From positions 1 through 63,830 of the forward strand of contig CAIVZM010000031.1 of NCBI GenBank assembly GCA_903910385.1: DNA of 63,830 nucleotides, read 5' to 3'. Made by a program: the position numbers and the translations under genes. How positions within the stretch are numbered: position 1 is the stretch's first letter; each line of letters begins with the position of its first letter. This DNA is from an uncultured Armatimonadota bacterium. Its GTDB lineage: Bacteria; Armatimonadota; Armatimonadia; Armatimonadales; Armatimonadaceae. Positions 60,792 to 61,541 of the stretch are shown here, piece after piece. The notes under the pieces are model-generated. The model saw only the letters and a list, made by a program, of their open reading frames with translations. It ran no database searches and had not been told where the DNA came from.

Positions 60792-61409
60792 TCAGTAGCG
60801 GCGAATCAGACCGATAACTCGACCAACCACTTCCTGTTTTTCGGAAACGTCCGAGTCCATATTCGCTCCTGTGGCGCGTAAAGCGTAAAGATCGCCGTGG
60901 GTGCGAATGACGACCATTTCACCGGCAAGGGAACGTTGTTGTGGACGCGCAACCAGTAAGTCACCGGGCAAGACAGGCTCGCCGGGAATACCTGTAGCGC
61001 CAACCCGAATGATAAATCCCGCCGGCGTCGCTGGCGCGACCAGTTCCTCGGGAATCGCAATATAGCGTTCTATCTCCGCTTCGCCCGCAATCTTATCATT
61101 GATCGTTTCTTCATCTTTTTCCGGAAGCGAGCGAACTAATGGAAGACGGACAGAAGTTTCCGGCTTCTGGGCGTCCTGAGGATCGCGCGGGTCTGGAGTC
61201 AGTACACGAATCGAGCGAGAGGTGTGTTTGACGCGAGTGATATAATTTTTTCGGGCTAACGCTTCGAGATGTACGGTAACGCCGCGTAGACTTCCAATCT
61301 CAAATGCTTCGCATAGTTCCCGGATGGTAGGGGGAAAACTATGTTCACGTTGAAAATCTATAATATATTCGAGAATGCGACGCTGTTTGTCGGTCAAACC
61401 CTTCGCCAT
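60792..61409 (-). CDS. LexA-like repressor without self-cleavage residues
   Basis: 205 residues with full LexA architecture. Residues 1-65 are the LexA winged helix: LTDKQRRILEYIIDFQREHS, PPTIRELCEAFEIGSLRGVT, KNYITRVKHTSRSIRVL. Residues 85-205 are an S24-like domain (FIIRVGATGIPGEPVLPGDL, EMVVIRTHGDLYALRATG, VVGRVIGLIRRY). The cleavage dipeptide Ala-Gly is absent (LPLVRSLPEKDEE), the Ser of the GDSM-like motif is replaced (GATGI at 137-141), and the Lys of the second motif is not evident near YALRA at 175-179. It probably binds DNA stably and is not an SOS-type switch. ATG 61409 is preferred to TTG 61415, as GAGG lies at 9 bases. Confidence 0.88.
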   Translation of the reverse strand: MAKGLTDKQRRILEYIIDFQREHSFPPTIRELCEAFEIGSLRGVTVHLEALARKNYITRVKHTSRSIRVLTPDPRDPQDAQKPETSVRLPLVRSLPEKDEETINDKIAGEAEIERYIAIPEELVAPATPAGFIIRVGATGIPGEPVLPGDLLVARPQQRSLAGEMVVIRTHGDLYALRATGANMDSDVSEKQEVVGRVIGLIRRY

Positions 61410-61541
61410 AATCAATTTCCTCTAATGCGATACTGGTAGACGTGATTATACGCGGAAGCAAGGGGACTGGTCAACCGTATAGTAAATCATAGAGTTTTCA
61501 ACACATTAATTATTTCACGTTAAGAGCATCAAAAATTTCTC

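Follow-up and report, generated by a model that had tools for sequence, protein, structure and literature searches.

What does a LexA-like repressor do when the residues with which LexA cuts itself seem to be missing? The question is raised by a gene in a 63,830-nucleotide stretch of DNA from an uncultured Armatimonadota bacterium (assembly GCA_903910385.1, contig CAIVZM010000031.1, positions 1 to 63,830), referred to here as the window. A preliminary description of this DNA saw in the gene product a typical LexA DNA-binding half joined to a C-terminal half without the Ala-Gly cleavage site, the catalytic Ser and apparently the catalytic Lys, that is, a protein that could not act as an SOS switch. 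The protein turns out to be a derived paralogue with conserved orthologues rather than the decayed sole LexA of its genome (Table 1).

Table 1. Features of the LexA-like gene, its product and its upstream region, in coordinates of the window.
Feature	Position	Strand	Remarks
LexA-derived paralogue without self-cleavage motifs, 205 aa, ATG start	60792..61409	-	
LexA-type winged HTH, residues 1-70	61200..61409	-	PF01726 58.5 bits; Foldseek match 1lea, TMt 0.89
Recognition helix S40-L48 (SLRGVTVHL)	61266..61292	-	Identical to the intact phylum-wide LexA type
Linker, residues 93-110, at the expected place of the Ala-Gly motif	61080..61133	-	Replaced; length varies among orthologues
Gly140 codon, catalytic Ser position	60990..60992	-	Gly in 4/4 orthologues
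Leu177 codon, catalytic Lys position	60879..60881	-	Leu/Gln/Gly/Gln in the window, L010, L011, L012
Sigma-70-like promoter, TTGACC, 18 nt, TATAAT, 11/12	61445..61474	-	
Candidate auto-operator GTATAATCACGTCTAC over the -10 box	61436..61451	-	2 mismatches to GTAGACN4GTCTAC

A LexA-like protein without the self-cleavage residues

The DNA-binding half of the window protein is indeed that of a typical LexA, scoring 58.5 bits against the LexA DNA-binding domain profile PF01726 (cut-off 23.7). The matches to Peptidase_S24 (PF00717, 15.2 bits, cut-off 23.3) and to the LexA equivalog TIGR00498 (84.8 bits, cut-off 110.95) fall below their cut-offs; three orthologues, found in two further genera of its Armatimonadota family, reach 88.9-90.7 bits with TIGR00498, and intact relatives reach 187-214. 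In an alignment with 114 further LexA-like proteins from Armatimonadota, the cleavage block conserved elsewhere (G-x-I/V-A-A-G) faces an unalignable linker in the window protein, and the catalytic Ser and Lys are replaced by Gly140 and Leu177, so that all three elements are missing, as first described. Both Ser and Lys are retained in 111 of the 115 aligned sequences, the exceptions being the window protein and its three orthologues, in which Ser has likewise become Gly and the Lys and the cleavage motif are lost. All four proteins keep the same recognition helix, and losses common to the three orthologues next to a helix kept in all four are more than chance.

Nor are the three elements displaced but present: the one Ala-Gly pair, Ala108-Gly109 (KIAGEAE), was considered as a shifted cleavage motif and rejected because the three orthologues lack it and neither a Ser nor a Lys partner accompanies it. 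Judging from these residues, the window protein is predicted to be unable to cut itself, which fits the earlier reading of a LexA that would not serve as an SOS switch. A separate observation concerns another LexA type, found in genomes of family f2 (L063, L065, L067 and L069), which has Gly-Gly at the cleavage position (RVAGG or KVAGG) and keeps the Ser and Lys.

A structure model built from five sequences is of modest confidence (mean pLDDT 61), with pLDDT of about 66-85 in the HTH and most C-terminal strands and below 50 in the linker (residues 76-129). The top Foldseek match of this pLDDT 61 model is LexA 3k2z (E 1.6e-10), its domain-level matches are LexA and the LexA C-terminal domain, and the sequence profile matches LexA chains over the whole chain (best E 6e-35). 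The order of the domains and the HTH fold are those of canonical LexA (E. coli, Thermotoga 3k2z), with which an S24-type C-terminal fold may also be shared and from which the window protein differs by the lack of an in-place dipeptide, Ser and Lys and by its score under the TIGR00498 cut-off.

Ancestry and selection

In a LexA tree of the phylum, the four altered proteins form one clade (support 100/100) with a stem of 1.24 changes per column, which sits beside the intact 'RGVT' LexA type, the branches just above the clade being weakly supported. LexA of the SLRGVTVHL type is intact elsewhere in the order and phylum, and by its sequence the window protein derives from this phylum-wide type. 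At comparable HTH identity, the C-terminal domains of the altered proteins are 49-60% identical, compared with a mean of 70% for intact pairs. For the closest pair of orthologues, dN/dS comes to about 0.04 (about 0.06/1.64) in the HTH and to about 0.28 (about 0.31/1.12) in the C-terminal domain, synonymous sites being saturated in several other orthologue pairs; both domains are thus constrained, the HTH more so, and this purifying selection rules out a pseudogene.

A second, canonical LexA

A search for a second complete lexA, proposed in the preliminary description, found one in the window's genome: contig C67 encodes a canonical LexA with RVAAG, GDSM and ATVK all present. The possibility that the window protein is a sole or degenerate LexA is thereby ruled out, and SOS control need not be lost. 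Paralogue and canonical LexA coexist in four of the 12 family genomes examined (genera g1, g2 and g3), and each of the remaining eight gives one LexA-like match. The two proteins are about 29% identical, with SLRGVTVHL as the recognition helix of the paralogue versus SSCSVQKHL in canonical LexA.

Two putative operator types at SOS genes

Intact 'RGVT' lexA genes have GTAGAC in common in their promoters, located around the -35 or just past the -10 box; some of these promoters contain the full form GTAGAC-N4-GTCTAC, and in most the second half is weaker. Of the 74 intact-type lexA promoters, 65 contain the exact half-site, versus 4.4 expected from shuffles; none of the seven promoters of canonical lexA in the window's family does. 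Since the motif was derived from the same lexA promoters, these counts are descriptive and polymerase genes provide a semi-independent check. The operator predicted for the SLRGVTVHL LexA type, and with it for the window protein, is GTAGAC-N4-GTCTAC. In the literature searched, we found no published LexA box for Armatimonadota, and among the papers listed for GTAGAC combined with LexA there were unrelated ones only.

Y-family polymerase genes are usual SOS targets, and dinB and imuB were labelled here by a PF00817 family match and by reading of the sequences. In family f14, which from our reading we take to be Fimbriimonas-like, all four genomes examined gave only the SLRGVTVHL LexA type, and the exact GTAGAC half-site lies near the start of all seven dinB/imuB genes. 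In the window's family, GCAAACN4GTTTGC is the best match at five of six dinB/imuB genes, with 1-3 mismatches, the GCAAAC-type match at the polymerase gene of G006 being weak (p 0.13). The dinB and imuB of the window's own genome carry GCAAAC-type boxes with 2 and 1 mismatches (shuffle p 0.003 and 0.007), and no GTAGAC half-site is found at either gene. A GCAAAC-type box is also present upstream of most canonical lexA genes in the family, that of the window's genome being a match with 3 mismatches only. The presence of GCAAAC-type boxes at both dinB/imuB and canonical lexA suggests that SOS has probably been handed over to canonical LexA in this family.

As an operator marker, recA was dropped: neither type of box is convincing upstream of the window genome's own recA (L182) or of the recA loci of its family, in which recA may not be LexA-controlled. 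G014 (L197, L202-L205), a genome of the neighbouring family with several LexA types, has six PF00817 matches, and both kinds of box, GTAGAC-type and GCAAAC-type, occur next to each other among its polymerase genes, which look as though two LexA types controlled them.

The paralogue's own promoter and the search for a regulon

The candidate operator over the paralogue's own -10 box is the best match to GTAGACN4GTCTAC in the window and the only one with at most two mismatches. About one such site per 63.8 kb would arise by chance (0.69 in shuffles), so it is the position of the candidate operator, not its presence, that carries weight; with 68 such sites in the 4.47-Mb genome, the chance for a 132-bp intergenic stretch is about 0.2%. 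Only the window's genome shows the auto-operator clearly. Among the orthologous promoters, that of G001 has a GTAGAC half-site far off, and those of G002 and G007 have none.

The preliminary description had also proposed looking for a common operator before target genes, and here the search came up empty. Across the window's own genome, GTAGACN4GTCTAC occurs at one place with one mismatch and at 68 with at most two, mostly intragenic among those read; no regulon was found by this search, and, with sites so rare and mostly intragenic, none is claimed. The gene neighbourhood gives no target either. Homologues of secG and tatA adjoin the paralogue gene in the window; among orthologous loci, secG adjoins in G002, and secG and tatA are near in G007 and within about 5-6 kb in G001. 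Wherever orientation was read, these neighbours are convergent with the paralogue gene and thus indicate no regulatory target.

Two further sites were seen along the way. In G001, a one-mismatch match to the operator precedes, by about 37 bp, a gene for a small regulator that is BlaI-like by eye (L162, about 1501-1538). The 16-mer GTACACGCAGGACTAC recurs at several places (contigs C16 and C67 of G000, contigs C352 and C407 of G002) and probably belongs to a repeat or a conserved gene.

Possible roles of the paralogue

The best explanation, which we consider probable, is that the protein is a LexA paralogue without autoproteolysis that is uncoupled from SOS and acts as a non-self-cleaving, self-limiting repressor. 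According to this scheme, two LexA types would have existed first and the SOS regulon would have passed to canonical LexA, after which the older-type paralogue would have lost its protease and kept DNA binding. Its dimer would still bind GTAGAC-type operators and act as a repressor, not an activator, at its own promoter and perhaps at a few other genes. The activity of the paralogue would depend on how much of it is present, or on some signal that differs from cleavage driven by RecA. We also entertain, as a tentative possibility, that once the SOS regulon had been rewired to the other LexA and its distinct operator, this older SOS repressor lost its protease and found a new use. As a non-cleavable protein it would then govern a different circuit, and a partner, a ligand or a modification acting at its remodelled C-terminal domain would control it.

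One may argue that the paralogue still takes part in SOS as a non-cleavable antagonist of canonical LexA, damping or timing the response as a heterodimer or an operator competitor. The two proteins do occur together in all four paralogue genomes, and according to the model the LexA fold may be kept. However, their recognition helices and boxes (GTAGAC-type versus GCAAAC-type) differ and their overall identity is low, which makes common sites or heterodimers unlikely, and we regard such a role as improbable. In Deinococcus, the protease IrrE cuts DdrO, and by analogy the paralogue might be inactivated in trans under stress, either by another protease or by canonical LexA acting at the Ala108-Gly109 bond. 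The linker is long and variable and probably flexible (pLDDT below 50 at residues 76-129), which would suit another protease, but neither its sequence and length nor the Ala-Gly pair is conserved, and no protease gene is constantly linked in the neighbourhoods inspected; trans-inactivation thus appears an unlikely explanation as well. That the gene is decaying toward loss, without an important role, is very hard to uphold, for although the type is missing from the four remaining genera of the family examined and the C-terminal domain of the paralogue has changed more quickly than that of intact relatives, full-length frames persist in four genomes of three genera, dN/dS is well below 1 in both domains, and some residues have newly become invariant, Gly140 and the EP..PGDLLV.RPQ block among them.

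Comparison with known systems

The LexA of Synechocystis controls non-SOS genes and, to our knowledge, is the only LexA in Synechocystis sp. PCC 6803. It is without the Ala-Gly site and the dyad Ser (PMC7567884), so that loss of self-cleavage in LexA is not new, and the precedent cited in the preliminary description is apt. The window protein likewise lacks the Ala-Gly site and the Ser; it differs in that an intact LexA coexists with it, the Lys is also lost, the linker is longer and the lineage, Armatimonadota, is separate. Two LexA proteins in one genome are also found in Leptospira interrogans, where LexA1 and LexA2 are both reported to take part in SOS (PMC3789691), whereas in the present case one of the two is without a protease. 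In addition, IrvR of Streptococcus mutans and the LexA homologue of phage GIL01, regulators that resemble LexA or are homologous to it, do not follow the usual RecA-LexA scheme (PMC7101444, PMC6182141), as is predicted for the window protein; hosts and origins differ.

Concluding remarks

With intact relatives of the same type, a second LexA and two operator types at hand, the likely evolutionary steps can be traced, from two LexA types through the hand-over of SOS to the loss of the protease, with DNA binding retained. Moreover, GTAGAC-N4-GTCTAC is offered as a candidate LexA box for Armatimonadota.
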